DNA from: Desulfovibrio sp. Fe33
GTDB lineage: Bacteria > Desulfobacterota > Desulfovibrionia > Desulfovibrionales > Desulfovibrionaceae
Assembly (NCBI RefSeq): GCF_028532725.1
Contig: NZ_JAQKGU010000012.1
Coordinates: 1 to 64,000, forward strand
Length of the DNA: 64,000 nucleotides
Direction: 5' to 3'
The position numbers and the translations under genes are program-made. Below the pieces are notes generated by a model. It searched no databases and was not told where the DNA came from. It was given only the letters and a program-made list of their open reading frames with translations. Of this stretch, positions 38,875 through 57,297 are shown piece by piece. The first letter of the stretch is position 1. Each line of letters begins with the position of its first letter.

Positions 38875-39714
38875 ATGCGTACCATTCAGACCAGCGAAAT
38901 CATCGACGCCGTCGCCAAGATGTGCGTCAGCGCCAACACCGAGCTGCCCGCCGACGTGCGCAGCAAGCTCGAAAAGGCCATGGCAGAGGAAACCAGCCCT
39001 TCCGCCAAGGAAGTGCTTCGCCAGCTCCTGGAAAACGCGGACCTGGCCCACAACACCAAACTGCCCCTGTGTCAGGACACCGGCCTCGCCGTCTTCTTCG
39101 TGGAAGTGGGCGACGACGTGCGCATCGAGGGCGGCAACCTGCGTGAAGCCATCAACGAAGGCACCCGCAGGGGGTACAAGGACGGCTTCCTGCGCAAGTC
39201 CGCCTGCGACCCGCTCTCCCGCGCCAACACCGGCGACGGCACCCCGGCCATCATCCACTTCGACTTCGTGCCCGGCGACAAGCTCAAGATATCCTTCATG
39301 GCCAAGGGCGGCGGAGCCGAGAACATGTCCCGCGTGACCATGCTCGCCCCGGCCCAGGGTTGGGAAGGCATCAAGAAGTTCGTTGTCAACCGCGTGGCCG
39401 AGGCCGGTCCCAACCCCTGCCCGCCCACGGTCATCGGAGTGGGCATCGGCGGGACCTTCGAACACGCCGCCAAGATCGCCAAGCGCGGACTCCTGCGCAA
39501 GCTGGACGACACCCATCCCGATCCGGACATCGCGGCCAAGGAAAAGGAACTCGTTGACGCCATCAACGCGCTCGGCATCGGCCCCATGGGACTGGGCGGA
39601 AAGACCACCGTGCTCGGCGTCAAGATCACCATGGAACCGTGCCACCTGGCGAGCCTGCCCCTGGCGGTCAACGTGCAGTGCCACTCCCAGCGGCATGAGG
39701 AGGTCGAACTCTAA
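38875..39714 (+). CDS. Class I fumarate hydratase, alpha subunit
   Basis: 279 aa N-terminal half of the two-part, oxygen-sensitive [4Fe-4S] fumarase (tartrate dehydratase family). Hallmarks: KLPLCQDTGLAVFF with a cluster Cys, AKGGGAENMSRVTML, GVGIGGTFEHAAKIAK and the C-terminal VNVQCHSQRH. It hydrates fumarate to malate together with the next gene. It begins one base after frdB and its stop overlaps the beta-subunit ATG by one base, so the genes are coupled. Confidence 0.94.
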   Translation: MRTIQTSEIIDAVAKMCVSANTELPADVRSKLEKAMAEETSPSAKEVLRQLLENADLAHNTKLPLCQDTGLAVFFVEVGDDVRIEGGNLREAINEGTRRGYKDGFLRKSACDPLSRANTGDGTPAIIHFDFVPGDKLKISFMAKGGGAENMSRVTMLAPAQGWEGIKKFVVNRVAEAGPNPCPPTVIGVGIGGTFEHAAKIAKRGLLRKLDDTHPDPDIAAKEKELVDAINALGIGPMGLGGKTTVLGVKITMEPCHLASLPLAVNVQCHSQRHEEVEL

Positions 39715-40271
39715 TGGCTGAATACAAGCTGAACACCCCGCTGACCGATGAAGACATCGCCCAACTCAAGGCGGGCGACGTGGTCTTCCTGACCGGGACC
39801 ATCTACTCCGCGCGCGACGCGGCCCACAAGAAGCTCGTGGACCTGCTCGACGCGGGCAAGGAACTGCCCTTCAAGCTCGAAGGCGCGGCCATCTACTACG
39901 TCGGCCCCTCCCCGGCGCCTCCGGGCCGCCCCATCGGCGCTGCCGGCCCGACCACCAGCTACCGCATGGATTCCTACGCCCCGCGCCTCTACTCCCTGGG
40001 GCTCAAGGCCACCATCGGCAAGGGCAAACGCGACGCGGCCACCCGCCAGGCCATGCAGGACTACACCGCCGTCTACTTCGGAGCCACCGGCGGGGCAGGC
40101 GCACTGCTGTCCAACTCCATCGTGGAGTCCAACGTCATAGCCTTCGACGAACTCGGCCCCGAGGCCATTCGCGAAATGAAGGTCGAGGACTTCCCCCTGC
40201 TCGTCATCAACGATTCCCACGGCGGCGAATTGTACGCCGTGCCCGACCGCAAGGCCGCGGGCATCGAATAA
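39714..40271 (+). CDS. Class I fumarate hydratase, beta subunit
   Basis: 185 aa C-terminal half of the class I fumarase. It has the family blocks GDVVFLTGTIYSARDAAHKK, YYVGPSPAPPGRPIGAAGPTTS, MDSYAP, and near the C-terminus LLVINDSHGGELY. TAATG overlap with the alpha subunit gene. A 25-base gap leads to the malic enzyme gene. Confidence 0.94.
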   Translation: MAEYKLNTPLTDEDIAQLKAGDVVFLTGTIYSARDAAHKKLVDLLDAGKELPFKLEGAAIYYVGPSPAPPGRPIGAAGPTTSYRMDSYAPRLYSLGLKATIGKGKRDAATRQAMQDYTAVYFGATGGAGALLSNSIVESNVIAFDELGPEAIREMKVEDFPLLVINDSHGGELYAVPDRKAAGIE

Positions 40272-40296
40272 CGCAAACCACCATAAGGAGACTGAA

Positions 40297-41619
40297 ATGG
40301 CATTATTCACCAAACAGGAAGCCCTGGACTACCATTCCATCGGCAGGAAGGGAAAGGTCGAGGTCGTCCCGGTCAAGCCGTGCAAAAACCAGAAGCACCT
40401 GTCCATGGCCTACAGCCCCGGCGTCGCCGAAGCGTGCATGGCCATCCATGCCGATCCCGAACTGGCCTACGAGTACACCGGCCGCGGCAACCTGATCGCA
40501 GTGGTCTCCAACGGCACCGCCGTGCTCGGCCTGGGCAACATCGGTCCCCTGGCGGGCAAGCCTGTCATGGAGGGCAAGGGCGTTCTGTTCAAGGTCTTCG
40601 GCGATGTGGACGTCTACGACATCAACCTCGACGTGACCGACCCCGACAAGCTCTGCGACGTGGTCAAGGCCCTGGAGCCCACCTTCGGCGGCATCAACCT
40701 CGAAGACATCAAGGCTCCCGAATGCTTCTACATCGAAGAGAAGCTGAAAAAGGAAATGAACATCCCGGTCTTCCATGACGATCAGCACGGTACGGCCATC
40801 GTTACCGCCGCCGGCATGATGAACGCCCTCGAAATCTCCGGCAAGGACCCGGCGGAAATGCGCGTGGTCATCTCCGGCGCGGGCGCGGCCGCCATCGCCT
40901 GCACCAACCTGTATCGCAACATGGGCGTCAAGTTCGAAAACATCGCCATGTTCGATTCCAAGGGACACATCAACAAGTCCCGCACCGACCTGAACAAGTT
41001 CAAGCAGCAGTACGCCACCGAGAAGGCCTACGGCTCCCTGGCCGAAGCCATGGTCGGCGCGGACTGCTTCCTCGGCCTGTCCAAGGCCGGCGTTGTCTCC
41101 AAGGAAATGGTCAAGTCCATGTCCGACAACTGCCCGATCATCTTCGCCTGCGCCAACCCCAATCCGGAGATCACCTACGACGACGCCAAGGAAGCACGCC
41201 CCGACTGCATCATGGGCACCGGCCGCTCCGACTTCCCCAACCAGGTGAACAACGTGCTCGGCTTCCCCTTCATCTTCCGCGGAGCGCTGGACTGCGGTGC
41301 CACGGCCATCACCGAAGGCATGAAGCTGGCTGCTGCCCAGGCCCTGGCCGACCTGGCCAAGACCGAGGCTCCGAAATACGTCTGCGAGGCGTTCGGCGTG
41401 GACAAGCTGGAATTCGGCAGAGACTACGTCATTCCCAAGGCCTTGGACCTGCGGCTCATCGAATATGTCTCCGTGGCCGTGGCCAAGGCCGCCATGGAGG
41501 AAGGCGTGGCCCGCAAGCCGCTCGACCTGGAAGAGTACAAGGCCTCCCTCGGCAAGCGCATCGCTGAATCCAGTCAGAGGGTCAGCGCATTCGTGGACAC
41601 CTATCATCTCGGAATATAA
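40297..41619 (+). CDS. Malic enzyme (oxidative malate decarboxylase)
   Basis: 440 aa cytoplasmic enzyme converting malate to pyruvate, CO2 and NAD(P)H. It is the short MaeB type without the C-terminal phosphotransacetylase-like domain of E. coli MaeB. Visible are the catalytic Tyr region YSPGVAEAC, a metal-binding [12 protein letters not shown], the Rossmann motif [17 protein letters not shown] and [16 protein letters not shown] is eight bases upstream. A terminator hairpin follows, but the transporter gene lies close behind. Cofactor choice (NAD or NADP) not assigned. Confidence 0.93.
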
Positions 41620-41627
41620 AATAAATA

Positions 41628-41651
41628 CGGGCGGGGCTCAGGCCCCGCCCG
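41628..41651 (+). terminator. Hairpin after the malic enzyme gene
   Basis: CGGGCGGGGC and GGCCCCGCCCG form a GC-rich stem with a 3-base loop, followed by an AT-rich GAATTTAT tract. It may attenuate transcription into the transporter gene. Confidence 0.65.
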
Positions 41652-41725
41652 GAATTTATCCTCAGCGCCGTCTGGGGTTGCGGTCCTTTCCTGGATGAAA
41701 AAGAACAACTACTGAGGAGTGTAAA

Positions 41726-43267
41726 ATGTCTGATCAGGCTGAATCCAACAAAGGCAAACAAATAGGGTTCTTTCTCGGACCCATTGTGTTCATCGCCATG
41801 CTGCTCATCCCGGCTCCCGAAGGCATGAAGCTGGAAGCATGGCGCGTGGCGGCCGTCACGGCTCTGATGGCCATCTGGTGGATCACCGAGGCCATTCCCA
41901 TCCCGGCCACCTCCCTGCTGCCCATCGCCATGTTCCCCCTGCTGGGCGTCATGAAATCCTCGGCCTCCACCGCCCCGTACGCCAACCACCTCATCTACCT
42001 GTTCATGGGCGGCTTCTTCCTGGCAGTGACCATGGAACGGTGGAACCTGCACCGCCGCGTGGCCCTGTACACCATCAAGGCCATCGGCACGAGCCCGGCC
42101 CGAATGATCATGGGCTTCATGGTCGCCACGGCCTTCCTCTCCATGTGGGTGTCCAACACCGCCACCGCCATGATGATGGTGCCCATCGGGCTGGCCGTCA
42201 TCCAGCAGGCCACAGGCTTCGACTCCGACCACCTGCGCGACAGCAGCAATAACGTCGGACCCGAGTTCAACTTCGGCCGCGGCCTGATGCTCGGCATCGC
42301 CTACGCCGCGTCCATCGGCGGCGTGGCCACCATCATCGGTACCCCGCCCAACACCGTCATGGCGGGCATGGTCGAAAAAATGTTCGGCGTGCAGATCGGC
42401 TTCGGCCAGTGGATGCTCTTCGGCGTTCCGCTGTCCGTCGTCACCCTGGCCATCGCATGGCTCCTGCTGACCAAGTTCCTGTTCCCCATGGGCGGCATGG
42501 AACTGGCCGGCGGCGAAAAAATCATCAATGAAGAAGTCAAGAAGCTGGGCCCCATGTCCAGCGAAGAAAAAATGATCGTCGTGGTGGGCTGTTTCGTGGC
42601 CACCTTCTGGCTGGCGCGCGGCTTCATGGCCGAATCCTCCTTCGTCCTCGGCATCATGCCCCACTTCAAGTACATCGGCGACGCCACCATCGGTATCCTC
42701 GGCGCCCTGATCCTGTTCGCCATCCCCGTCGACTTCAAGAAAGGCAAGTTCCTCCTGGATTGGAAGACCGCGGTCAAGATTCCCTGGGACGTCATCCTGC
42801 TCTTCGGCGGCGGTCTCGCCATCGCCAACGGTTTCGCCAAGACCGGCCTGGCGGCCTACATCGCCAGCCAGCTCGGCGCGCTCGAAGGCGCCAGCATGAT
42901 CGTCTTCGTGGGCGCGGTGGTCCTCATCACCATCTTCCTGACGGAGATCACCTCCAACACCGCCACCGCCACCCTGCTCGTGCCCATCATGGGCTCCGCG
43001 GCCATCGCCATGGGCGTGCATCCGTACGCGACCATCATCGGTGCCTGCGTGGCGGCCTCCTACGCCTTCATGCTCCCGGTGGCCACCCCGCCGAACGCGG
43101 TCGTGTTCGGCAGCGGATGCGTGACCATCAAACAAATGGCAAAGGCAGGTGTATGGCTCAACCTGATAGGAACAATCCTGATTACGGCCTTCGTGGTCTA
43201 CATCCTCCCGAGCCTCTGGGGCGTGGACCTCAGCATCGTTCCCGAATGGGCGGTCATACCCAAGTAA
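41726..43267 (+). CDS. DASS-family sodium/C4-dicarboxylate transporter
   Basis: 513 aa inner-membrane protein with about 11-14 hydrophobic segments, of the SLC13/DASS (CitT/VcINDY) family. The two repeats each contain the sodium- and substrate-binding SNT motif: SNTATAMMMVP near residue 145 and TSNTATATLLVP near residue 410. GGFFLAVTMERWNLHRR is the family's cytoplasmic signature. GAGGAG precedes the ATG. Location beside fumarate reductase, fumarase and malic enzyme suggests succinate, fumarate or malate as substrate. Confidence 0.92.
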   Translation: MSDQAESNKGKQIGFFLGPIVFIAMLLIPAPEGMKLEAWRVAAVTALMAIWWITEAIPIPATSLLPIAMFPLLGVMKSSASTAPYANHLIYLFMGGFFLAVTMERWNLHRRVALYTIKAIGTSPARMIMGFMVATAFLSMWVSNTATAMMMVPIGLAVIQQATGFDSDHLRDSSNNVGPEFNFGRGLMLGIAYAASIGGVATIIGTPPNTVMAGMVEKMFGVQIGFGQWMLFGVPLSVVTLAIAWLLLTKFLFPMGGMELAGGEKIINEEVKKLGPMSSEEKMIVVVGCFVATFWLARGFMAESSFVLGIMPHFKYIGDATIGILGALILFAIPVDFKKGKFLLDWKTAVKIPWDVILLFGGGLAIANGFAKTGLAAYIASQLGALEGASMIVFVGAVVLITIFLTEITSNTATATLLVPIMGSAAIAMGVHPYATIIGACVAASYAFMLPVATPPNAVVFGSGCVTIKQMAKAGVWLNLIGTILITAFVVYILPSLWGVDLSIVPEWAVIPK

Positions 43268-43367: not shown

Positions 43368-44132
43368 ATGCGTTCAAAATCGAAGATATTTCCCGTCCTT
43401 GCGGCGACCATAGTGCTCCTGGCGGTGGCCATCATCGGATACGTCCGATCGGGCCAGACGCAGCCGATGCCCGTGCGCATCCTATTCGAGAACAACGGGG
43501 GAAAGGTTCTTTTCTCCCACCTTGTTCACCACAGGGACTACCAGATCGAATGCTCCCGCTGCCACCACGACAAGGCCCAGCCGATCGTCTCCCCCCAGGA
43601 CGAAGCTCTGGCCTGCGGCTCCTGTCATCCGAACGAGTTCGACGATAATTTCGTGGACAACCACATGGACTCCTTCCCCAACGAGTCCTACTGCGTGCGT
43701 TGCCACCATGTGGAGTACGACACAGTGCGCTTCGACCATGAGGCGCATACCGACTACGCCTCGGACTGCTACGACTGTCATCACGGCAAGGACATCGAGC
43801 CCGAGCCGCAAAAGTGCAACAACTGCCACACGGAAAAGAGCACGGACAAGCTCCTGTCCATGCGCGAGGCCGGGCACCAAAGCTGCGGCCAATGCCATGA
43901 GGACATGTTCGACAAGGGCCTTTCCAGTTGCAAGTCCTGCCACATCCCCAAGGACATGACCGACTACAAAGGCGATTTCTCGGCCTGCAACCAGTGCCAT
44001 GAGTCCGAGACCAGGGAACTGGTCCTGCCCCGCATGAACGCCTTCCACGACCAGTGCATGTCCTGCCACGAAGAAATGGGAGCGGGCCCCTACGGCCCCG
44101 ACAACTGCAACCAATGCCACATCAGCAGGTAG
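43368..44132 (+). CDS. Decaheme cytochrome c of the Rnf operon
   Basis: 254 aa with an uncleaved-looking N-terminal membrane helix (about 8-26) and ten CxxCH heme motifs: CSRCH, CGSCH, CVRCH, CYDCH, CNNCH, CGQCH, CKSCH, CNQCH, CMSCH and CNQCH. Four or five occur as CxxCHH or with nearby His for axial ligation. Orientation should place the hemes in the periplasm. It lies eight bases before rnfC. In Desulfovibrio vulgaris a multiheme cytochrome occupies the same place and is thought to link Rnf to the periplasmic cytochrome c3 pool, probably also true here. Confidence 0.93.
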   Translation: MRSKSKIFPVLAATIVLLAVAIIGYVRSGQTQPMPVRILFENNGGKVLFSHLVHHRDYQIECSRCHHDKAQPIVSPQDEALACGSCHPNEFDDNFVDNHMDSFPNESYCVRCHHVEYDTVRFDHEAHTDYASDCYDCHHGKDIEPEPQKCNNCHTEKSTDKLLSMREAGHQSCGQCHEDMFDKGLSSCKSCHIPKDMTDYKGDFSACNQCHESETRELVLPRMNAFHDQCMSCHEEMGAGPYGPDNCNQCHISR

Positions 44133-44139
44133 GCGGAAT

Positions 44140-45243
44140 ATGAATACCCTATCGACACCTCCCGCCCCGGCGGAGCTGACCCTGACCCGCCACTGTCCCC
44201 TGGTCACCTGCGGCCAGAAGGTCGAACGCGGCGAGCGCATCGCCACCGCGTCCGAGCCGGGCATGGGCGACATCCACGCCCCGTTCCCGGGGTCCGTGGA
44301 ACACGTGGACCCGTACCGCATCCGCATCGTCCGCGAGGGCGGCGAGACCGTGGACCCGGCCATCCTCGACGGCCTGGGCGGCCAGGATCTTCTCGCGCGG
44401 CTGCGCGAACTCGGCGCGGACCTCCCGGCCTTCGGGCAGGTCGACGTCCTCATCCTCAACGCCGTGGACGAAGAGCCCGGCTTGCTCTCCAGGCGGACGC
44501 TGCTGGCCGAAAAGCTGGAAACCCTGCGGGCCGGGACCTCGGCCCTGGTCCGGGGATACAAGCCTGCGGAAGTCATCCTGGCCGTTCCCGGCGGAGTGAA
44601 GGAATCCCTGCCGGACATCGCCGTCAAGGTCATCTCCGATCAATACCCGCAGGGGCTCGATCCCCTGGTGGCCAAGGCCGTCACGGGCCAGGAAGCTCCC
44701 GACAACACCCTGGTGGTGGGTCTGGAGACGGTCTTCCATGCCGGAATGGCCATGGAAACAGGGCTGCCTGTCATGGAGACCATGGTCACGGTGGGCAACT
44801 CCGCCAGGCTCATCGGCCTGGGGTCCCCGGTCGGCGAGCTTCTGACCAGCGACGGATTGACCATCCACGATGGCGACCGCATCGTCCTTGGCGGTATGCT
44901 CCGGGGCACGGCGGCGGCTTCGCCCAGGCAGGGCGTCGACCGCGCAACCACCGCCGTAAGCCTGATCCGCAACCCGACTCCGGTGGCCATGGACGCGGCC
45001 TGCGTGGGCTGCGGCGAATGCGTGCGCCGGTGTCCGGCCCGCCTCGATCCGGCCATGATTACCAGCTACGCGGAGTTCGGCCGGTACGACAAGGCCGAGG
45101 CCGAAGCCGTGGACGTTTGTTTCGAATGCGGCCTGTGCGGCTTCTTCTGCATCGCCCGCCGCCCCATGCTCCAATACATCAGGCTCGCCAAGCACGAATT
45201 GGCGAAGGCCAAAGCCCAGTCCGGGGAGGAAACCCAGCCGTGA
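44140..45243 (+). CDS. rnfC: Electron transport complex subunit RnfC, short diverged form
   Basis: 367 aa, shorter than typical RnfC (about 440 aa or more). Two C-terminal [4Fe-4S] motifs are intact: C288/C291/C294/C298 and C327/C330/C333/C337. The N-terminal lipoyl-like region (GQKVERGERIATA) is present. The FMN/NADH core is altered: the glycine-rich segment reads GLGGQDLLARL, and the usual NAAECEPY is NAVDEEPGLLSRRTLL. It may still bind flavin, but NAD binding is uncertain. Its TGA overlaps the GTG of rnfD. Confidence 0.9.
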   Translation: MNTLSTPPAPAELTLTRHCPLVTCGQKVERGERIATASEPGMGDIHAPFPGSVEHVDPYRIRIVREGGETVDPAILDGLGGQDLLARLRELGADLPAFGQVDVLILNAVDEEPGLLSRRTLLAEKLETLRAGTSALVRGYKPAEVILAVPGGVKESLPDIAVKVISDQYPQGLDPLVAKAVTGQEAPDNTLVVGLETVFHAGMAMETGLPVMETMVTVGNSARLIGLGSPVGELLTSDGLTIHDGDRIVLGGMLRGTAAASPRQGVDRATTAVSLIRNPTPVAMDAACVGCGECVRRCPARLDPAMITSYAEFGRYDKAEAEAVDVCFECGLCGFFCIARRPMLQYIRLAKHELAKAKAQSGEETQP

Positions 45244-46190
45244 AGCCTCTCAACCCCTTTGCCCTGACCGTCTCGGTCCCGCCCCACCGCCATTGCGGCA
45301 CCACGGTACGGGACCGGATGCTGACCATACTGGTGGCCATGCTGCCCGCCGCCGTCATGGCGTCCATGACCTTCGGGATGCCCGCCGTCCGGGTCATGGC
45401 CCTGTCCATGGCCACGGCCGTGCTGGCCGAAATGGCCTGCGATTATTTCATGGACCGCGAGACCGACGTCCATAATTTCCACGCCTTCACCGTGGGGCTG
45501 TCCTTCGCCTTCCTGCTCCCGGCCACCGCGCCCTGGTGGCTGGTCGCCTTCGGCAGCGCGGCCTCCATCGTGCTGGGCAAAATGGCCTTCGGGCCCCTGG
45601 GCGGCAGCCCGTTCTGCGCCCCCCTGGTGGGCTGGGCCATCTGCCGCATCTCCTGGCCCTCATTCATGGACATAGACGCCTCCATGCTCGGCATGGACCT
45701 GACCTACCCCCTGGCCCAGCTCAAGAACTTCGGCCTGGACGCGGTGCAGATCACCGACACCCGACAGCTCTTCCTGGGCAAGCAGCTCGGCGGCCTGGGC
45801 TCGGTCCAGATAGCGGGAGTGCTCCTGGGCGGAATGCTCCTGGTCATGCGCAAGCACATCTCGTCCATCATCCCTGTGGGAGTCATCGGCGGCGTCGCCC
45901 TGACCGCCTTCCTGTTCCACTGGATAGACCCGTCGATGTACGCCTCCCCGGCCTTCCACCTGCTGACCGGGTCCACCCTGTTCGGGGCGTTCTTCCTGGC
46001 CACGGACGGCCCGTCCAGCCCCAACCGGCAGATTCCCATGCTGCTCTTCGGCCTCCTGGCCGGGGCGCTCATCGTCATCATCCGGATTTACGGGGTCTAC
46101 CCGGACGGCGTGCCCTTCGCCATCCTGCTGGCCAACCTGTTCACCCCGGCGCTCGAACGCATCCGGCCCAAGCCGTTCGGAAGGAGATAG
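45240..46190 (+). CDS. rnfD: Electron transport complex subunit RnfD
   Basis: 316 aa membrane subunit with about nine helices, homologous to NqrB. Covalent FMN is expected on T245 in LLTGSTLFGAFFLATDGPSS, the family's flavinylation segment. Start is GTG at 45240, overlapping the rnfC stop as GTGA, with GGGGAGGA about nine bases upstream. Forms the membrane electron and ion path with RnfA, E and G. Confidence 0.92.
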   Translation: MKPLNPFALTVSVPPHRHCGTTVRDRMLTILVAMLPAAVMASMTFGMPAVRVMALSMATAVLAEMACDYFMDRETDVHNFHAFTVGLSFAFLLPATAPWWLVAFGSAASIVLGKMAFGPLGGSPFCAPLVGWAICRISWPSFMDIDASMLGMDLTYPLAQLKNFGLDAVQITDTRQLFLGKQLGGLGSVQIAGVLLGGMLLVMRKHISSIIPVGVIGGVALTAFLFHWIDPSMYASPAFHLLTGSTLFGAFFLATDGPSSPNRQIPMLLFGLLAGALIVIIRIYGVYPDGVPFAILLANLFTPALERIRPKPFGRR

Positions 46191-46193
46191 GCC

Positions 46194-46769
46194 ATGAAGG
46201 AAATGATGAAAATGATGATCGTCCTGTCGCTCATCTGCGGCATCGCGGGCATCACCCTGGCCGCGCTCAAGCAGGTCACGGCCCCGATCATCGAGGAACA
46301 GGTCCTGACCTATGTCCAGGCCCCGGCCATCCAGTCGGTCCTGAGCGGCTACGACAACGACCCCATCAAGGACCGCCGGACGTTCGATGTTGACGGCCGG
46401 ACCGTGATGGTCTTCCCGGCCCTCAAGGACGGCAAGCTCATCGGACTGGCCTTTGAGACCTCGGGCAAGGGATACGGCGGCAACATCGGCGTCATGGTCG
46501 GTTTCGACGTCGGCGCCATGACCCTGACCGGCATAGGCATCACCACACTCAAGGAAACCCCGGGCCTGGGCGCGCGCGTGGCCGAGCACGGGTACGCCAC
46601 GCAATTCAGGGGACATTCCCTGGAAAGCGTGGATCTGAAGAAGAACGGCGGCGACATCGAAGCCGTCGCCGGGGCGACCATTTCCTCCAACGGCACCGTG
46701 TCCGCGGTCCGCGAGGCCATCGCCATCTTCAACGCCCTAAAGGGCAAACTCGCCGGCGGCTGGTCCTAA
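46194..46769 (+). CDS. rnfG: Electron transport complex subunit RnfG
   Basis: 191 aa, one N-terminal membrane helix (about 7-26) and a periplasmic FMN-binding domain. T162 in VAGATISSNG is the expected phosphoester-linked FMN site, installed by an ApbE transferase; the preceding residue is Ala rather than the usual Ser. GKGYGGNIGVMVGFD and TLKETPGLGAR are family blocks. Starts three bases after rnfD. The only ApbE in this window is the MFS fusion at 29722-31896. Confidence 0.93.
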   Translation: MKEMMKMMIVLSLICGIAGITLAALKQVTAPIIEEQVLTYVQAPAIQSVLSGYDNDPIKDRRTFDVDGRTVMVFPALKDGKLIGLAFETSGKGYGGNIGVMVGFDVGAMTLTGIGITTLKETPGLGARVAEHGYATQFRGHSLESVDLKKNGGDIEAVAGATISSNGTVSAVREAIAIFNALKGKLAGGWS

Positions 46770-46794: not shown

Positions 46795-47469
46795 ATGAAC
46801 AGATTGTGGAAGGAATTCTCCAAGGGACTGTGGAAGGACCTGCCCCCGTTCAAGCTGGTCCTCGGCCTCTGCCCGGTCCTGGCCGTGACCAACACGGCGA
46901 ACAACGGGCTCGGCATGGGCATGGCCGTGGTCTTCGTCCTGACCCTGTCCAACCTGATGGTCTCCCTGCTCAGGAAGATCATCCCGGCCAAGGTGCGCAT
47001 CGCCTGCTTCATCGTGGTGGCCGCATCCCTGGTGGTGGCCGTCGAGCTGCTCATGCAGGCGTTCGCCTACCCGCTTTACCAGCAGCTCGGCATCTTCGTG
47101 CCGCTGATCGTGGTCAACTGCATCATCCTGGGCCGGGCCGAGGCGTTCGCCTCCAAGAACCCGCCGCTTTTGTCCATGGCCGACGGCATGGGCATGGGAC
47201 TCGGCTTCACCATGTCCCTGACCTTCCTGGGCGCGCTGCGCGAGCTGCTCGGCACGGGCATGGTCTTCGGCGTCAACGTGTTATGGGAAGGCTTCCAGCC
47301 CATCGGCATCATGGTCAAGGCCCCCGGAGCCTTTGTCTCCCTGGGCGTCCTGCTGGCCATCATGACCTTCGTGGAAAACGTCCGGCGTAAGCGCAGGGGA
47401 CTGGCCGCCGTCCAGGGTCCGACCCACGACTGCGGCTCCTGCGGCGGCTGCGGCCAGAAGAACTGCTAA
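46795..47469 (+). CDS. rnfE: Electron transport complex subunit RnfE with Cys-rich tail
   Basis: 224 aa, six transmembrane helices homologous to NqrD. LVLGLCPVLAVTNTANNGLGMG is the family start, with the membrane Cys that binds an Fe-S cluster together with RnfA. The C-terminus ends CGSCGGCGQKNC (Cys 213, 216, 219 and 224), which could bind a metal or cluster on the cytoplasmic side. GTGGAAGG-like sequence precedes; rnfA begins 18 bases downstream. Confidence 0.92.
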   Translation: MNRLWKEFSKGLWKDLPPFKLVLGLCPVLAVTNTANNGLGMGMAVVFVLTLSNLMVSLLRKIIPAKVRIACFIVVAASLVVAVELLMQAFAYPLYQQLGIFVPLIVVNCIILGRAEAFASKNPPLLSMADGMGMGLGFTMSLTFLGALRELLGTGMVFGVNVLWEGFQPIGIMVKAPGAFVSLGVLLAIMTFVENVRRKRRGLAAVQGPTHDCGSCGGCGQKNC

Positions 47470-47487: not shown

Positions 47488-48063
47488 ATGCAGGAATACT
47501 TCCTTCTCTTCATCGGGGCGATGTTCGTCAACAACATCGTTCTGGCCCAATACCTGGGCAACTGCCCCTTCATCGGCACCTCCAAGGAAACGTCCGTGGC
47601 CGTCGGTATGGGCGGAGCCGTGGTTTTCGTGGCCGTCATGGCCGCGGCCATCACCTGGCTGGTCCAGGAGTACGTTCTGGCCCCCTTCGGCCTGGACTTC
47701 CTCCAGACCCTGGCCTTCATCCTGGTCATCGCATCGCTGGTCCAGTTCGTGGAGATGTTCCTCAAGAAAATGGTCCCGCCGCTCTACAAGTCGCTGGGCA
47801 TTTTCCTGCCGCTCATCACCACCAACTGCGCGGTCATGGGTATCGCGCTCATCTGCCAGCGCGAGGAGTTCGGCTTTTTCAAGACGGTCATGTTCTCCCT
47901 GGCGTCAGGGCTCGGCTTCATGCTCGCCCTGGTGCTTCTGGCGGGAATCCGCGAGCGGCTGTCCGTGCGGCGGCTGCCCATAGCCATGCGCGGCACGCCC
48001 ATCGGCCTCATCATGGCCGGACTCATGTCCCTGGCCTTCTTCGCCTTCCAGGGAATGATCTAA
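47488..48063 (+). CDS. rnfA: Electron transport complex subunit RnfA
   Basis: 191 aa, six transmembrane helices, homologous to NqrE. FVNNIVLAQYLGNCPFIGTS near residues 14-33 and PLITTNCAVMG near residue 110 contain the two conserved membrane Cys that share an iron-sulfur cluster with RnfE. Very typical length. rnfB follows after 30 bases. Confidence 0.95.
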   Translation: MQEYFLLFIGAMFVNNIVLAQYLGNCPFIGTSKETSVAVGMGGAVVFVAVMAAAITWLVQEYVLAPFGLDFLQTLAFILVIASLVQFVEMFLKKMVPPLYKSLGIFLPLITTNCAVMGIALICQREEFGFFKTVMFSLASGLGFMLALVLLAGIRERLSVRRLPIAMRGTPIGLIMAGLMSLAFFAFQGMI

Positions 48064-48093: not shown

Positions 48094-50199
48094 ATGATAC
48101 TGACATCGGGACTGACTCTGTTCGGCATCGGCCTGCTGGCCGCCGCCATCCTGGGCATCGCCTCGAAGCTCCTCTTCGTCAAGGAGGACCCGCGGATCGC
48201 GCTTATCGAGGACAACCTGCCCGGCGCAAACTGCGGCGGCTGCGGCTTCCCCGGCTGCTCCGGCGCGGCTGCCGCCATCGTGGCGGGCAAGGCTCCGGCC
48301 TCGGTGTGCATCGTGGCCGACGGCGAGGCCATCGCCGTCATCGCGGCCATCATGGGCCAGGAAGTCATCGAACGCGAGCCGGAACTGGCCGTGCGGGACT
48401 GCTCCGGCGGACAGCGGGCCGAGGAGCTCTTCCACTATGAGGGGGCCATGGACTGCCGGGCCGCCCATCAGCTCTACGGCGGGTCCAAATCCTGCCCCGA
48501 AGGGTGCCTCGGACTCGGCACCTGCGTCCGGGCCTGCCCCTTCGACGCCATCCACATGGGCCCGGAAGGCCTACCGGTCATCGACCCGGCCCAGTGCAAG
48601 GCCTGCGGCAACTGCGTGGACGCCTGTCCGCGCGGGGTCATCGGCATCTCCGGCATGTCCGCCCGGCTGCTGCACCTCAACCAGACCACGGACTGCCTGG
48701 CTCCCTGCCGCCAGAAGTGCCCGGCCCAGATCAATATTCCCCGGTACATCGAACAGATCAAGGCGGGCGACTACGACGGCGCGGTCATGACCATCAAGGA
48801 GCGCAACCCGCTGCTGGTCACCTGCGGCCGGGTCTGCCCCCGCCCGTGCGAAACGGTCTGCCGCCGCCAGCACGTGGACACGTCCGTGGGCATCAACATG
48901 CTCAAACGGTTCGTGGCCGACCGCGAACTCCGCTCCGGCACCCGGCTGCCCGTGCCTTGCGCGGCCGACACCGGCAAGCGCGTGGCCGTCATCGGCGGCG
49001 GCCCCGCAGGCCTGTCCTGCGCCTATTTCCTGCGCCGCCTGGGCCACAGCCCGACCATCTTCGACGCCATGCCCAAACTCGGCGGACAGACCCGCTACGG
49101 CATCCCGGAATACCGGCTGCCCAAGGCGGACCTCGACTGGGAAATTCAGGGCATCCTGGACCTCGGGATCGAGGCCAAGGTCAACACCAAGTTCGGACGC
49201 GATTTCACCATCGAATCCCTCAAGGCCGAAGGATACGAAGCGGTCTTCATCGGCATCGGCGCCTGGCAGGCGTCGGGCATGTACGCCGAGGGCGAGGACC
49301 TGGACGGCGTCATGGGCGGCATCGAATTCCTGACGGCCCACGCCCTGGGCCAGAAGCCCGAGACCGGCGACAAGGTCATCGTGGTCGGCGGCGGCAACAC
49401 CGCCATCGACGCGGCCCGCACCTGCGTCCGCCTCGGGGCCGAAGTGACCATGATGTACCGCCGCACCCGCGCCGAAATGCCCGCCGACGAGGAAGAGATC
49501 GTCGGGGCAGAGGACGAGGGCGTGAAGTTCAGGTTCCTGGCCGCCCCGGCCCGCGTCATCGGCGACGAGAACGGCCACGCCACCCATCTCGAATATTACG
49601 AGATGGAACTGGGCGAGCCCGACGCGTCCGGACGCCGCCGCCCGGTCAAGAAGGAAGGCTCGGAACAGCGCATGGAGGCGACCCTCATCATTCCCGCCAT
49701 CGGACAGAAGCCGGACCTCGGTTGCCTGTACGACGACTCCGAGGCCGGAACCTGTCCGCTGGAAACCACCAAGTGGCAGACCATCGTGGCCGACCCGGAC
49801 ACGTTCCAGACGGCCATCCCCGGCGTGTTCACCGCGGGCGACGTCTACACCGGCCCGGACCTGGTCATCTCGGCCATCGGCGACGGCCGCAAGGCCGCCC
49901 GGTCGATCCACTATCACATGATGCAGGGAGACATCCCGGTCCCGGACACCACGCAGAAGGGAATGATCCCGTACACGCTGTTCAAGGAAATCGATCAGGT
50001 GGAACGGAGGAACCGCGCTGTTCTGCCTCACCTGTGCCACGGCGATGACCGCAACTGCACCTTCAACGAGGTGGAAGGCCCGCTCACCGAGGAACAGGCC
50101 CGCGCCGAGGCGGACCGCTGCCTGCGTTGCGGACTGGTCTGCTACGACCGGGACGAGGCCTTCACTGCCGGGGAAAGGGACACCGCCCCGGACGCTTAA
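48094..50199 (+). CDS. rnfB: RnfB fused to a GltD/NfnB-like FAD-NAD(P) oxidoreductase module
   Basis: 701 aa, far longer than ordinary RnfB (about 190-330 aa). Residues 1-28 are a membrane anchor. C47/C50/C55/C72 form the Fer4_4 site; C134/C138/C144/C148 and C168/C171/C174/C178 are two ferredoxin clusters. Then comes a GltD-like module: Cys groups 201/205/209 and 244/248/252/256, FAD motif VIGGGPAGLS (about 299-308), NAD(P) motif VVGGGNTAIDAART near 430 followed by YRRTRAEMPA, and FTAGDVYTGPDLV near the end. A final CLRCGLVC may hold more metal. It could let NAD(P)H and ferredoxin meet on one subunit. Confidence 0.93.
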   Translation: MILTSGLTLFGIGLLAAAILGIASKLLFVKEDPRIALIEDNLPGANCGGCGFPGCSGAAAAIVAGKAPASVCIVADGEAIAVIAAIMGQEVIEREPELAVRDCSGGQRAEELFHYEGAMDCRAAHQLYGGSKSCPEGCLGLGTCVRACPFDAIHMGPEGLPVIDPAQCKACGNCVDACPRGVIGISGMSARLLHLNQTTDCLAPCRQKCPAQINIPRYIEQIKAGDYDGAVMTIKERNPLLVTCGRVCPRPCETVCRRQHVDTSVGINMLKRFVADRELRSGTRLPVPCAADTGKRVAVIGGGPAGLSCAYFLRRLGHSPTIFDAMPKLGGQTRYGIPEYRLPKADLDWEIQGILDLGIEAKVNTKFGRDFTIESLKAEGYEAVFIGIGAWQASGMYAEGEDLDGVMGGIEFLTAHALGQKPETGDKVIVVGGGNTAIDAARTCVRLGAEVTMMYRRTRAEMPADEEEIVGAEDEGVKFRFLAAPARVIGDENGHATHLEYYEMELGEPDASGRRRPVKKEGSEQRMEATLIIPAIGQKPDLGCLYDDSEAGTCPLETTKWQTIVADPDTFQTAIPGVFTAGDVYTGPDLVISAIGDGRKAARSIHYHMMQGDIPVPDTTQKGMIPYTLFKEIDQVERRNRAVLPHLCHGDDRNCTFNEVEGPLTEEQARAEADRCLRCGLVCYDRDEAFTAGERDTAPDA

Positions 50200-50340: not shown

Positions 50341-52461
50341 ATGTCCAAGAGCCTCTATATAGCAGCCACCGAAGCCCGAAGCGGCAAATCCGCCATCCTC
50401 CTCGGGGTGATGCACCTGCTTCGGGCGAACCTCCAGCGCGTGGCCGTCTTCCGCCCGGTCATCAGCGATCCGATGGACGGCCGCAGGGATCACGACATCG
50501 ATCTCATGCTTCGCCATTTCAAGCTCGATCAGGAATACGAGCAGACCTACGGCTACACCCTGAGCGAGGCCCGCAGGCTGATGAACAGCGGGAACAAGGC
50601 GCTGCTTCTGGAAAGCACCCTGAACAAGTTCAAGGAGCTGGAAAAGAACTACGACTTCGTCCTGTGCGAAGGCACCGACTACATCGGCGGCGGTGCCACC
50701 CTGGAATTCGAGATCAACGCCTCCATCGTCTCCAACCTGGGCTGCCCGGTCCTGCTCGTGGTCAACGGCCTGAACCGCAGCGACGACGAGCTGTGCGGCT
50801 CGGCCCAGCGCACGGTGGAAGTCTTCGAGGAGCGCGGCCTGGAGGTCATGGGACTCATCGTGAACCGCGCCCGTCCCGGATTCTCGCCCGACACGCTCCG
50901 GGACATCGAGGCCAAGACCCGCGCCTCGCACCCGCTGCTGGCCTACGCCGTCCCGGACGACAAGCGGCTGGGCAACCCGACCATTCACGACGTCATCAAA
51001 TGGCTGGACGCCACCGTGCTTTACGGCCACGGCAGGCTGGACACGCAGGTGGACAGCTTCCTGACCGCGGCCATGCACATCACCAATTTTCTCGAATACA
51101 TCGAGGACGGCGCGCTGATCGTCACCCCCGGCGACCGCATGGACATCATCCTGGCCAGCATCTCCTCGCGCCAGTCCTCCCTGTACGGCAACATCGCGGG
51201 CATCGTGCTGACCGGCGGGATACAGCCGTCCGAGACCGTGCACAGGCTCATTGAAGGATGGACCGGCGTCCCACTGCCCATCCTCAGCGTGAAGGACCAC
51301 ACCTTCAAGGCGACCCAGACGCTCCAGGCCCTGCACGGCACCATCGACCCCGAGCACCCGGCCAAGATCGCCTCGGCCATCGGCCTTTTCGAATCCTGCG
51401 TGAACATCGAGGAGCTGCGCAACCGGCTGGTCACCACCCAATCCACCAAGATCACGCCGATCATGTTCGAATACAACCTCCTTGAGACGGCCAAACGCGA
51501 ACGGATGCACATCGTCCTGCCCGAGGGAACCAGCGACCGCATCCTCCGGGCCACCGAGATACTGCAACGGCGCAACGTGGTGGACATCACCCTGCTGGGC
51601 GACCCGGACGCCATCCTCTCCCAGGCCTCCCATCTCGGCGTGCAGCTCAACGGCGCGGTCCTGCTGGACCCGGCCCGGTCACCGCAGTTCGAGGACTACG
51701 CCCGGCGGTACTTCGAAGCGCGGCAGCACAAGGGCATCCGCATGGAGGACGCCCGCGACCGCATCGTCGACCCCACCTATTTCGGGACCATGATGGTCCA
51801 TGCGGGCGACGCGGACGGCATGGTCTCCGGCTCGGTGACCACCACGGCCCAGACCATCCGCCCCGCCTTCGAATTCATCAAAACCAGACCGGACGCTTCC
51901 ATTGTATCGTCCGTCTTCCTCATGTGCATGGGTGACCGCGTAGTCTGCTTCGGCGACTGCGCGGTCAACCCTAAACCCGACGCGACCCAGCTCGCGGAGA
52001 TCGCCCTGAGCTCGGCGCAGACCGCCCGGCTCTTCGGCATCGACCCGTATGTGGCCATGCTCTCCTACTCCACGGGCGGCTCGGGCACCGGCGCGGATGT
52101 GGAGAAGGTCGTGGAGGCCACGGCCATCGCCAAGAGCCTGGCCAAGGAGCGGGGCCTTTCCATCCCCATCGAGGGGCCGCTGCAATACGACGCGGCGGTG
52201 GACCCGGACGTGGCCCGGACCAAGCTGCCCGGTTCCGAGGTGGCCGGACACGCCACGGTCTTCATCTTCCCGGACCTGAACACCGGCAACAACACATACA
52301 AGGCCGTGCAGCGGGCCGTCCCCGGCTCCACCGCCATCGGCCCGGTACTCCAGGGGCTGAACAAGCCGGTCAACGACCTCTCGCGCGGCTGCCGCGTGCG
52401 GGACATCGTCAACACCGTGGCCATCACCGCCATCCAGGCCCAAGCCCAAAGGAACGCATAG
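50341..52461 (+). CDS. pta: Phosphate acetyltransferase (long, BioD-like N-terminus)
   Basis: 706 aa. Converts acetyl-CoA and phosphate to acetyl-phosphate and CoA. The N-terminal 1-230 is a P-loop BioD-like domain (TEARSGKSA), a DRTGG-like domain follows, and the catalytic PTA domain covers about 375-706 (VLPEGTSDRILRA, GDADGMVSGSVTTTA, SYSTGGSG, GPVLQGLNKPVNDLSRG). Matches the E. coli-type long enzyme (714 aa). AAGGAG precedes the ATG; ackA follows one base after its stop, so acetyl-phosphate goes straight to ATP production. Confidence 0.96.
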   Translation: MSKSLYIAATEARSGKSAILLGVMHLLRANLQRVAVFRPVISDPMDGRRDHDIDLMLRHFKLDQEYEQTYGYTLSEARRLMNSGNKALLLESTLNKFKELEKNYDFVLCEGTDYIGGGATLEFEINASIVSNLGCPVLLVVNGLNRSDDELCGSAQRTVEVFEERGLEVMGLIVNRARPGFSPDTLRDIEAKTRASHPLLAYAVPDDKRLGNPTIHDVIKWLDATVLYGHGRLDTQVDSFLTAAMHITNFLEYIEDGALIVTPGDRMDIILASISSRQSSLYGNIAGIVLTGGIQPSETVHRLIEGWTGVPLPILSVKDHTFKATQTLQALHGTIDPEHPAKIASAIGLFESCVNIEELRNRLVTTQSTKITPIMFEYNLLETAKRERMHIVLPEGTSDRILRATEILQRRNVVDITLLGDPDAILSQASHLGVQLNGAVLLDPARSPQFEDYARRYFEARQHKGIRMEDARDRIVDPTYFGTMMVHAGDADGMVSGSVTTTAQTIRPAFEFIKTRPDASIVSSVFLMCMGDRVVCFGDCAVNPKPDATQLAEIALSSAQTARLFGIDPYVAMLSYSTGGSGTGADVEKVVEATAIAKSLAKERGLSIPIEGPLQYDAAVDPDVARTKLPGSEVAGHATVFIFPDLNTGNNTYKAVQRAVPGSTAIGPVLQGLNKPVNDLSRGCRVRDIVNTVAITAIQAQAQRNA

Positions 52462-52462
52462 C

Positions 52463-53668
52463 ATGAAAATCCTGGTCATCAACTCCGGAAGCTCGTCCCT
52501 CAAATACCAGCTCATCGACATGGCTGACGACAGGGTCATGGCTTCGGGCCTCATCGAGCGTATCGGCGAGGAAATAGGCTCCATCACCCAGAAATCCAAT
52601 CCGGACAAATGGCCCGACGCCAAATCCGTGGAGCATCTGCCCATCCTGAATCACAAGGAGGCCATGGGACTCATGGTCTCGAAACTCACCGGCGAGGAAT
52701 GGGGCGTCATCGACTCCCTGCGCGACATAGACGCCGTGGGACACCGCGTGGTCCAGGGCGGCGAATCCTTTTCCACGCCGGTCCTGGTGGACGCCGACGT
52801 GGTGGAGACCATCCGCGACAACATTCCGCTCGCGCCCCTGCACGCCGCCAACCTGGTGGGGATCGAAGCCGCCCTGGAGCTTTTTCCAGGCACGCCGAAC
52901 GTCACCGTGTTCGACACCGAATTTCATCAGACCATGCCGCCCAAGGCGTTCATGTACCCGGTCCCGACGGACCTCTACGAGGACCTCAAGATCCGCAAGT
53001 ACGGATTCCACGGCACCTCCCACAAGTACGTCACCAGGGAGGCCGCGGCCTTCCTCGGCAAGCCCGTTGACGAAGTGGACCTGATTACCGCCCACCTGGG
53101 CAACGGATGCTCCATGGCCGCGGTCAAGAACGGCCGATGCGTGGACACCACCATGGGACTGACCCCGCTTGCCGGGCTGATGATGGGCACCCGTTCGGGC
53201 GATGTGGACCCGGCCCTGTTCCCCTTCATCACCAAGCACCGGAATATGTCCGTGCTTGAAGTGGACACCATGCTCAACAAGCAAAGCGGCCTGCTCGGCA
53301 TTTCCGGCCTGAACGACATGCGCGACGTGCACGCCGCCCGCCAAAAGGGCAACAAGAAGGCGCAGCTCGCATTCGAGATGTTCGCCTATCGGGTCAAGGC
53401 CCAGATCGGCTCCTACCTGGCCGTGCTCGGCCGGGCCGACGCCGTGGTCTTCACGGCGGGCATCGGCGAGAACGACGCCTTTGTCAGAGCCGCCGCCTGC
53501 GAAGGGCTCGAAGGCCTCGGCATCCGGCTCTCCGCGGAACGCAACGAAACGCGCGCCCCCGGCGTGCGCCGCATCAGCACCGACGACAGCCCGGTGAACG
53601 TGCTCGTGATCCCCACCAACGAGGAACTGGAGATCGCCCACGCCACCAAAGCGCTGGTTGATGGATAA
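52463..53668 (+). CDS. ackA: Acetate kinase
   Basis: 401 aa, the normal size. Converts acetyl-phosphate and ADP to acetate and ATP. The N-terminal INSGSSSLKYQLID, FHGTSHKYVTREA, GNGCSMAAV, TTMGLTPLAGLMMGTRSGDVDP and FTAGIGENDAFVRA blocks are complete. It starts one base after pta and is followed after 38 AT-rich bases by the por gene. Confidence 0.97.
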   Translation: MKILVINSGSSSLKYQLIDMADDRVMASGLIERIGEEIGSITQKSNPDKWPDAKSVEHLPILNHKEAMGLMVSKLTGEEWGVIDSLRDIDAVGHRVVQGGESFSTPVLVDADVVETIRDNIPLAPLHAANLVGIEAALELFPGTPNVTVFDTEFHQTMPPKAFMYPVPTDLYEDLKIRKYGFHGTSHKYVTREAAAFLGKPVDEVDLITAHLGNGCSMAAVKNGRCVDTTMGLTPLAGLMMGTRSGDVDPALFPFITKHRNMSVLEVDTMLNKQSGLLGISGLNDMRDVHAARQKGNKKAQLAFEMFAYRVKAQIGSYLAVLGRADAVVFTAGIGENDAFVRAAACEGLEGLGIRLSAERNETRAPGVRRISTDDSPVNVLVIPTNEELEIAHATKALVDG

Positions 53669-53691
53669 ACATATATAATACCTAGTTATAA

Positions 53692-57297
<3,606 letters not shown>

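Follow-up and report, generated by a model that had tools for sequence, protein, structure and literature searches.

The last gene of the rnf operon in the window (the whole 64,000-nucleotide stretch of DNA analysed here, from a sulfate reducer) encodes an RnfB which runs on, within one chain, into a GltD-like FAD/NAD(P) module, and this fusion is an old, conserved gene. The fusion itself has already been reported, as "Rnf2", and is not new; the new leads are its four copies in this genome, two of which have lost the NADPH site, and the gene neighbourhood. We propose that electrons would enter a cytochrome-linked Rnf pump through two doors on the fused RnfB, a reading to which we give about an even chance of being correct.

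Organisation of the fusion gene

The gene is a single ATG-started frame without internal stops, and closes an operon of the order cyt c-rnfC-D-G-E-A-B (Table 1). Residues 1–190 constitute a full RnfB with the features by which the family is recognised (N-terminal membrane helix, FdI [4Fe-4S] domain and two ferredoxin-type [4Fe-4S] clusters), encoded together with rnfC, D, G, E and A, while residues 198–690 form a GltD-like FAD/NAD(P) module with its own Fe-S domain. Besides the Pfam domains listed in Table 1, Pyr_redox_2 was detected at residues 296–598 (E 1e-29). The RnfB models of NCBIfam reach over residues 1–260 and the PRK12771/gltA-type models over residues 198–690 (E to 1e-147). Searching the PDB, residues 6–192 matched RnfB of A. 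woodii and C. tetanomorphum, and residues 187–686 matched NfnABC (E 3e-125) and StnC (E 2e-116), with NfnB coming after these. An earlier note, made from the sequence alone, had claimed a one-chain RnfB carrying an FAD-NAD(P) oxidoreductase, and these matches bear it out. Its description of the module as GltD/NfnB-like holds for the homology and for the FAD and NADP motifs, but not for the layout, as the counterpart of the EAxRCLxC motif is C-terminal (residues 652–683), as in NfnABC and StnC. The structure prediction of the fusion was poor (mean pLDDT 50), although a helix was modelled at residues 2–27.

Table 1. Location of the fusion gene, its domains and motifs, the rnf operon and the conserved flanking genes in the window (aa, residues of the fusion protein).
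Feature	Position	Strand	Basis or remark
Multihaem cytochrome c, 10 CxxCH	43368..44132	+	First operon gene; Pfam
rnfC, 367 aa	44140..45243	+	Without GxGGAxFPT FMN/NADH loop; both [4Fe-4S] motifs kept
rnfD, GTG start	45240..46190	+	Frame, Pfam, NCBIfam
rnfG	46194..46769	+	NCBIfam RnfG_DVU2794
rnfE, Cys-rich C-terminal tail	46795..47469	+	NCBIfam
rnfA	47488..48063	+	NCBIfam
rnfB-gltD fusion gene, 701 aa	48094..50199	+	Frame; Pfam, NCBIfam and PDB matches
N-terminal RnfB membrane helix, aa 5–27	48106..48174	+	By eye from sequence; helix 2–27 in poor model
FdI [4Fe-4S] domain, aa 42–73; C47, C50, C55, C72	48217..48312	+	Pfam FeS, PF04060; Cys 47/47
RnfB 2x[4Fe-4S] ferredoxin domain, aa 134–183	48493..48642	+	Pfam 4Fe-4S; Cys invariant
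Fer4_20, Fe-S part of GltD-like module, aa 201–280	48694..48933	+	Pfam, E 1e-21; C205, C209, C248, C252, C256 invariant
Lys271	48904..48906	+	Aligns with StnC Lys170 (ligand, FAD-adjacent cluster); Glu in NfnB
FAD-binding Gly loop VAVIGGGPAG, aa 297–306	48982..49011	+	Sequence, alignment
Arg341	49114..49116	+	Aligns with NfnB Arg201 / StnC Arg239, near flavin N5
NADP-type Rossmann motif VVGGGNTAIDAART...MYRRTRAEMPA, aa 430–464	49381..49485	+	Alignments
C-terminal Cys motif CLRCGLVC, aa 676–683	50119..50142	+	Relocated counterpart of NfnB N-terminal EAxRCLxC
Upstream conserved: fumarase beta 39714–40271, malic enzyme 40297–41619, DASS dicarboxylate transporter 41726–43267	39714..43267	+	
Downstream conserved: Pta 50341–52461, AckA 52463–53668, PFOR 53707–57297	50341..57297	+	

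Distribution and copies

The full-length fusion was found in 66 of the 297 Desulfovibrionales genomes sampled, including all 33 of the genus of the window genome; this count is of matches spanning the chain from end to end, and genome G289 additionally holds some truncated copies. When the phylum was sampled thinly, 39 of 395 genomes reached the E 1e-160 threshold; these include a few soluble cousins that are not fusions, and for some of the fusions one stop is read where the match ends. The suggestion that such fusions may exist in other Desulfovibrionales is thus confirmed for the order, and they also occur in other orders of the phylum. A frameshift or assembly error joining two genes is excluded by the full-length frame in these genomes, several of them consisting of a single contig, and by the low dN/dS, which lies between 0.05 and 0.17 across all four parts of the chain (codon comparison with the nearest relative, L092). 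The 14 RnfB cysteines and the 8 Fe-S cysteines of the module are invariant (47 of 47 fusions).

The window genome contains four complete rnf operons, each with a fused RnfB: the one in the window and those of L089, L090 and L091, with identities of 65%, 50% and 47%, respectively. No RnfB without the module was found in this genome, and the number of RnfA copies per genome in the genus ranges from 1 to 4. L090 and L091 have 5-haem cytochromes and both belong to clade D, in which all nine sequences have lost YRR and carry replacements at Gly434 (S/T), Glu461 (K), Asp583 (Glu) and Lys271 (Q/H/E), while keeping all 22 cysteines and being under purifying selection. In clade E (L132–L138, seven sequences from outside Desulfovibrionales), the YRR and GD sites were altered separately and Lys271 is kept. 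The loss of YRR together with the change from GD to GE is common to all 9 class-D and 7 class-E sequences. That the module persists where the NADPH motif is gone is the least expected result of this study, and as the module is kept in two related clades that lack the motif, it could have uses other than NADPH oxidation. Where the motif is lost, L090 (10041–12155) and L091 (9918–12032) share a conserved replacement, RKMxANKxE, which could possibly bind a new ligand.

At two loci, L121 (2400–8295) and L122, the Rnf lacks a cytochrome and has an intact RnfC of the NADH type; their genomes also carry a class-D fusion operon (L107 in the genome of L121). Soluble cousins of about 600 residues (L110, 7010–8815; L111, 591–2393; L139–L141) combine an RnfB-like ferredoxin domain with the module, without the helix or FdI; that of L110 adjoins genes for a 2-oxoacid:ferredoxin oxidoreductase, a fumarate reductase-like protein and a succinyl-CoA synthetase.

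Evolutionary history of the fusion

The RnfB-domain tree unites the fused classes C, D and F (SH-aLRT 94), which points to common descent of the window fusion with those of the Desulfobacterales, the Tol2 protein itself not being part of this tree. Because these RnfB domains group together, the fusion would seem to date from a single event early in the phylum. For RnfD, G, E and A, the tree places the cytochrome-linked group B, with its short RnfB, among the fused operons (AU p 0.033 against a fused-only grouping), and its RnfB belongs to another lineage. The position of group B in the core-subunit tree suggests that it later took up another RnfB; this order of events, fusion first and RnfB swap later in group B, rests on the AU p of 0.033 and is only suggestive. 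In the module tree, the clostridial rows L063 and L064, which were mistranslated, are disregarded.

Type of module and nucleotide preference

The FAD loop, GGGNTA and YRR are identical throughout the window clade and that of the Desulfobacterales (38 of 38 sequences), and Lys271, where the bifurcating NfnB has a Glu ligand, is invariant in the same 38 sequences of the NADP-motif clades. Arg341 is invariant as well. The window protein shares the Lys at the ligand position, the C-terminal CLxCG motif and the NADP motif with StnC and NfnABC. StnC binds NADPH, and its FAD is argued by the authors of that study not to be the bifurcating flavin (PMC10482914). The NfnB of the window genome itself has Glu at the position of Lys271, and no NfnA partner is present in the fusion operon, the NfnAB of this genome being encoded elsewhere. 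Lys271 and the relocation of part of the Fe-S ligands to the C terminus, as in StnC, place the module in the NfnABC/StnC kind; with the FAD of StnC reported as non-bifurcating, a plain NADPH dehydrogenase is more probable than a site of bifurcation.

The motif GGGNTAID...YRRTRAEMPA is common to the window RnfB and to the NADP-binding NfnB and StnC, and the alignment with these proteins confirms that the NADP-type motif of the fused module is intact. Since the YRRTR-type motif is shared with NADP enzymes, NADPH would be favoured over NADH. A possible NADPH preference had already been raised in the earlier note; the shared motif and the nearby NADP-type-like malic enzyme support leaning this way, by homology.

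Operon and gene neighbourhood

The flanks of the window operon, fumarase, malic enzyme and DASS transporter upstream and Pta, AckA and PFOR downstream, are kept around window-type operons in L009, L010 and L014, and partly, or as far as the contigs or stretches reach, in L011, L012, L013, L015, L034, L092, L093, L094 and L098. The malic enzyme best fits the NADP-type family, yet it scores below the curated cut-off of the NADP-type model, which describes a longer, two-domain protein, so that it is a candidate NADP-type enzyme. From this gene order, the conversion of malate to acetate would give one NADPH and reduced ferredoxin beside a pump that could take both.

The RnfE tail is of the CxxCxxC type (in the window ...HDCGSCGGCGQKNC) in nearly all cytochrome-linked Desulfovibrionales Rnf operons, namely the window and most of L009–L018, L089–L109, L112–L120, L127 and L129; neither the cytochrome-free operons read nor those of Desulfobacterales have it. 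The tail might serve to hold an additional cluster or a metal.

A proposed dual-donor input

As a proposal, the feeding of one pump by both NADPH and ferredoxin is well motivated. In the window, malic enzyme would be the main source of NADPH, whose hydride would pass to the C-terminal FAD; from there, electrons would travel singly via the two [4Fe-4S] clusters of the module, the FAD-adjacent one probably with Lys271 as a ligand, and reach the RnfB ferredoxin domain. The clusters of this domain would also accept electrons from ferredoxin reduced by PFOR. Onward, the usual Rnf route would be followed (the mobile FdI domain, the [2Fe-2S] of RnfA/E, and the FMN of RnfG and RnfD), coupled to ion transport, with the exit at the periplasmic decaheme cytochrome c and perhaps also at the RnfC clusters, rather than at NAD+ on RnfC. 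The reverse flow may yield NADPH and reduced ferredoxin.

This dual input is in agreement with the invariant cysteines, the identical FAD, GGGNTA and YRR motifs, the purifying selection on the module and the malate–pyruvate flanks. The soluble cousins, one of them beside 2-oxoacid:ferredoxin oxidoreductase and TCA genes, are as expected of a ferredoxin/NADPH enzyme. Against it, the malate neighbourhood was not found around L089, which has the NADP motif, nor around the Desulfobacterales operons; it was likewise not found around L090, L091 or group B. The fitness of a decaheme cytochrome mutant of D. alaskensis was unaffected on ethanol, formate or H2, which speaks against this cytochrome being an obligatory exit; the D. 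alaskensis rnf mutants may lack the fusion. A published rnf primer, used to find D. alaskensis G20, gave only a chance match without rnf genes.

RnfC and alternative explanations

The window RnfC is modelled with an RnfC/NqrA fold, matches Pfam Complex1_51K only below the cut-off, and lacks the Gly-rich FMN/NADH loop by which canonical Rnf1 is recognised. Its segment GLGGQDLL is placed on the Gly loop by pairwise phmmer but before a deletion in the multiple alignment; the AxFPT half is gone either way. That RnfC has diverged at its nucleotide site, as had been claimed, is thus correct. It was further supposed that the NAD(P) site had moved from RnfC to RnfB, the fusion compensating for the lost site in an otherwise ordinary Rnf, which would suit an RnfC without its loop next to an RnfB that gained a nucleotide module. 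This is not supported. The GxGGAxFPT loop is present only in L121–L123 (with the last position changed in L123), operons without a detected cytochrome, and is absent from the window and every other cytochrome-linked operon examined, fused or unfused. Each of the 11 short-RnfB operons linked to a cytochrome lacks it, and it is altered in 5 short-RnfB operons without cytochrome, so that its loss is not tied to the fusion; moreover, in group B, nested among the fused operons with an RnfB of foreign lineage, the RnfC loss persists without the fusion. We consider such a move improbable, and somewhat more so than a membrane-tethered NADPH:ferredoxin oxidoreductase, which would balance both pools with little flow into the pump and is itself unlikely. 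The latter is favoured by the soluble cousins, which have the same layout of ferredoxin domain and module outside rnf operons, but wherever the flank of a fused locus is long enough, the fusion gene is the last of a complete rnf operon, and it keeps the helix and FdI domain which deliver electrons to RnfA/E. NfnAB, encoded in the window genome and near-universal in the order, would moreover already cover this task.

NfnAB of the window genome is located at L149 (4499–5914). D. aespoeensis is presumably of the same genus as the window genome (Pseudodesulfovibrio), and a review lists this species as lacking Nfn (PMC6405883). The fusion as a replacement for NfnAB was dropped, since an NfnA-type match occurs in 241 of 247 Desulfovibrionales genomes (235 above the cut-off) and also in the window genome. 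Flavin-based bifurcation, the FAD splitting NADPH electrons between ferredoxin at low potential and the membrane chain at high potential, or the reverse, could draw on the invariant Arg341, counterpart of the Arg shielding the flavin N5 in NfnB, and on the existence of two acceptor branches; Lys271, found in StnC in place of the Glu of NfnB, which the genome's own NfnB retains, and an operon without NfnA make this the least probable reading. Only marginally less remote is a module that is mainly structural or serves another donor, with nucleotide oxidation lost or minor. This is plausible for the sister clades D and E, which include two copies of the window genome, but in the window copy and 37 others the motif residues are kept, and dN/dS is low. 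Slightly more probable than these two, and still very doubtful, is an Rnf2 dual-donor pump whose FAD would bifurcate or confurcate between ferredoxin and the periplasmic cytochrome chain, the former NADPH pocket of class D taking a different donor. The plain dual input of NADPH and ferredoxin remains the reading we prefer.

Comparison with known systems

A large RnfB with NAD sites and a reduced RnfC have been described for D. toluolica Tol2, and a second set for D. multivorans; proof of a different mode of action is said to be still awaited (PMC5109826). Rnf2 was assigned to Desulfobacteraceae and Rnf1 to Desulfovibrionaceae (PMC11887813), and many Desulfovibrionaceae were said to have lost rnfB, with an FAD-dependent oxidoreductase instead (PMC11434368). 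The view that such fusions have no functional description stands for biochemistry, none being found for any Rnf2 in the literature searched, but the fusion and the altered RnfC had been reported and named. The window shares with the Rnf2/Tol2 type an RnfB of about 700 residues with an NAD(P)-site domain in one chain, an RnfC without the NADH-binding part, and a full rnf operon. While Rnf2/Tol2 is from Desulfobacteraceae with a pentaheme cytochrome, the window operon is from Desulfovibrionaceae, with a decaheme one, a malate/pyruvate gene setting and four copies in one genome.

The GltD-like module of NfnABC/StnABC (9bov, 9n5u, 8oh5 chain C) is homologous over residues 187–686 and belongs to a soluble, bifurcating complex whose partner is of the HydBC type, whereas that of the window forms one chain with RnfB, as part of a membrane pump. 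NfnB, GltD and dihydropyrimidine dehydrogenase have the same FAD and NADP Rossmann pair and two-cluster Fe-S domain, but the Cys motif of NfnB is N-terminal and the window module has neither an NfnA nor a GltB partner. Na+-NQR follows the same idea of a pyridine-nucleotide-fed flavoprotein supplying an Rnf-type core; there, the FNR-type NqrF replaces RnfB, while the window keeps RnfB and adds a different flavoprotein. The Rnf of M. acetivorans, in which RnfB is short, differs in being archaeal and in passing electrons to methanophenazine. It resembles the window in that its complex includes a multihaem cytochrome c as an extra component (PMC12174285).

In the fused operons read here, the RnfB part is always present, in frame, ahead of the oxidoreductase. 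That Desulfovibrionaceae commonly carry the fusion, and that RnfB is part of the "oxidoreductase", bears on both assignments (PMC11887813, PMC11434368) and would correct the claim of rnfB loss with a separate FAD oxidoreductase (PMC11434368). The proposal concerns how NADPH, ferredoxin and periplasmic cytochromes are connected in the energy metabolism of sulfate reducers. If it is true, a second entry port on RnfB would change the accepted Rnf reaction in a large group of anaerobes, which would be from ferredoxin and NADPH to cytochrome c, and not from ferredoxin to NAD+.
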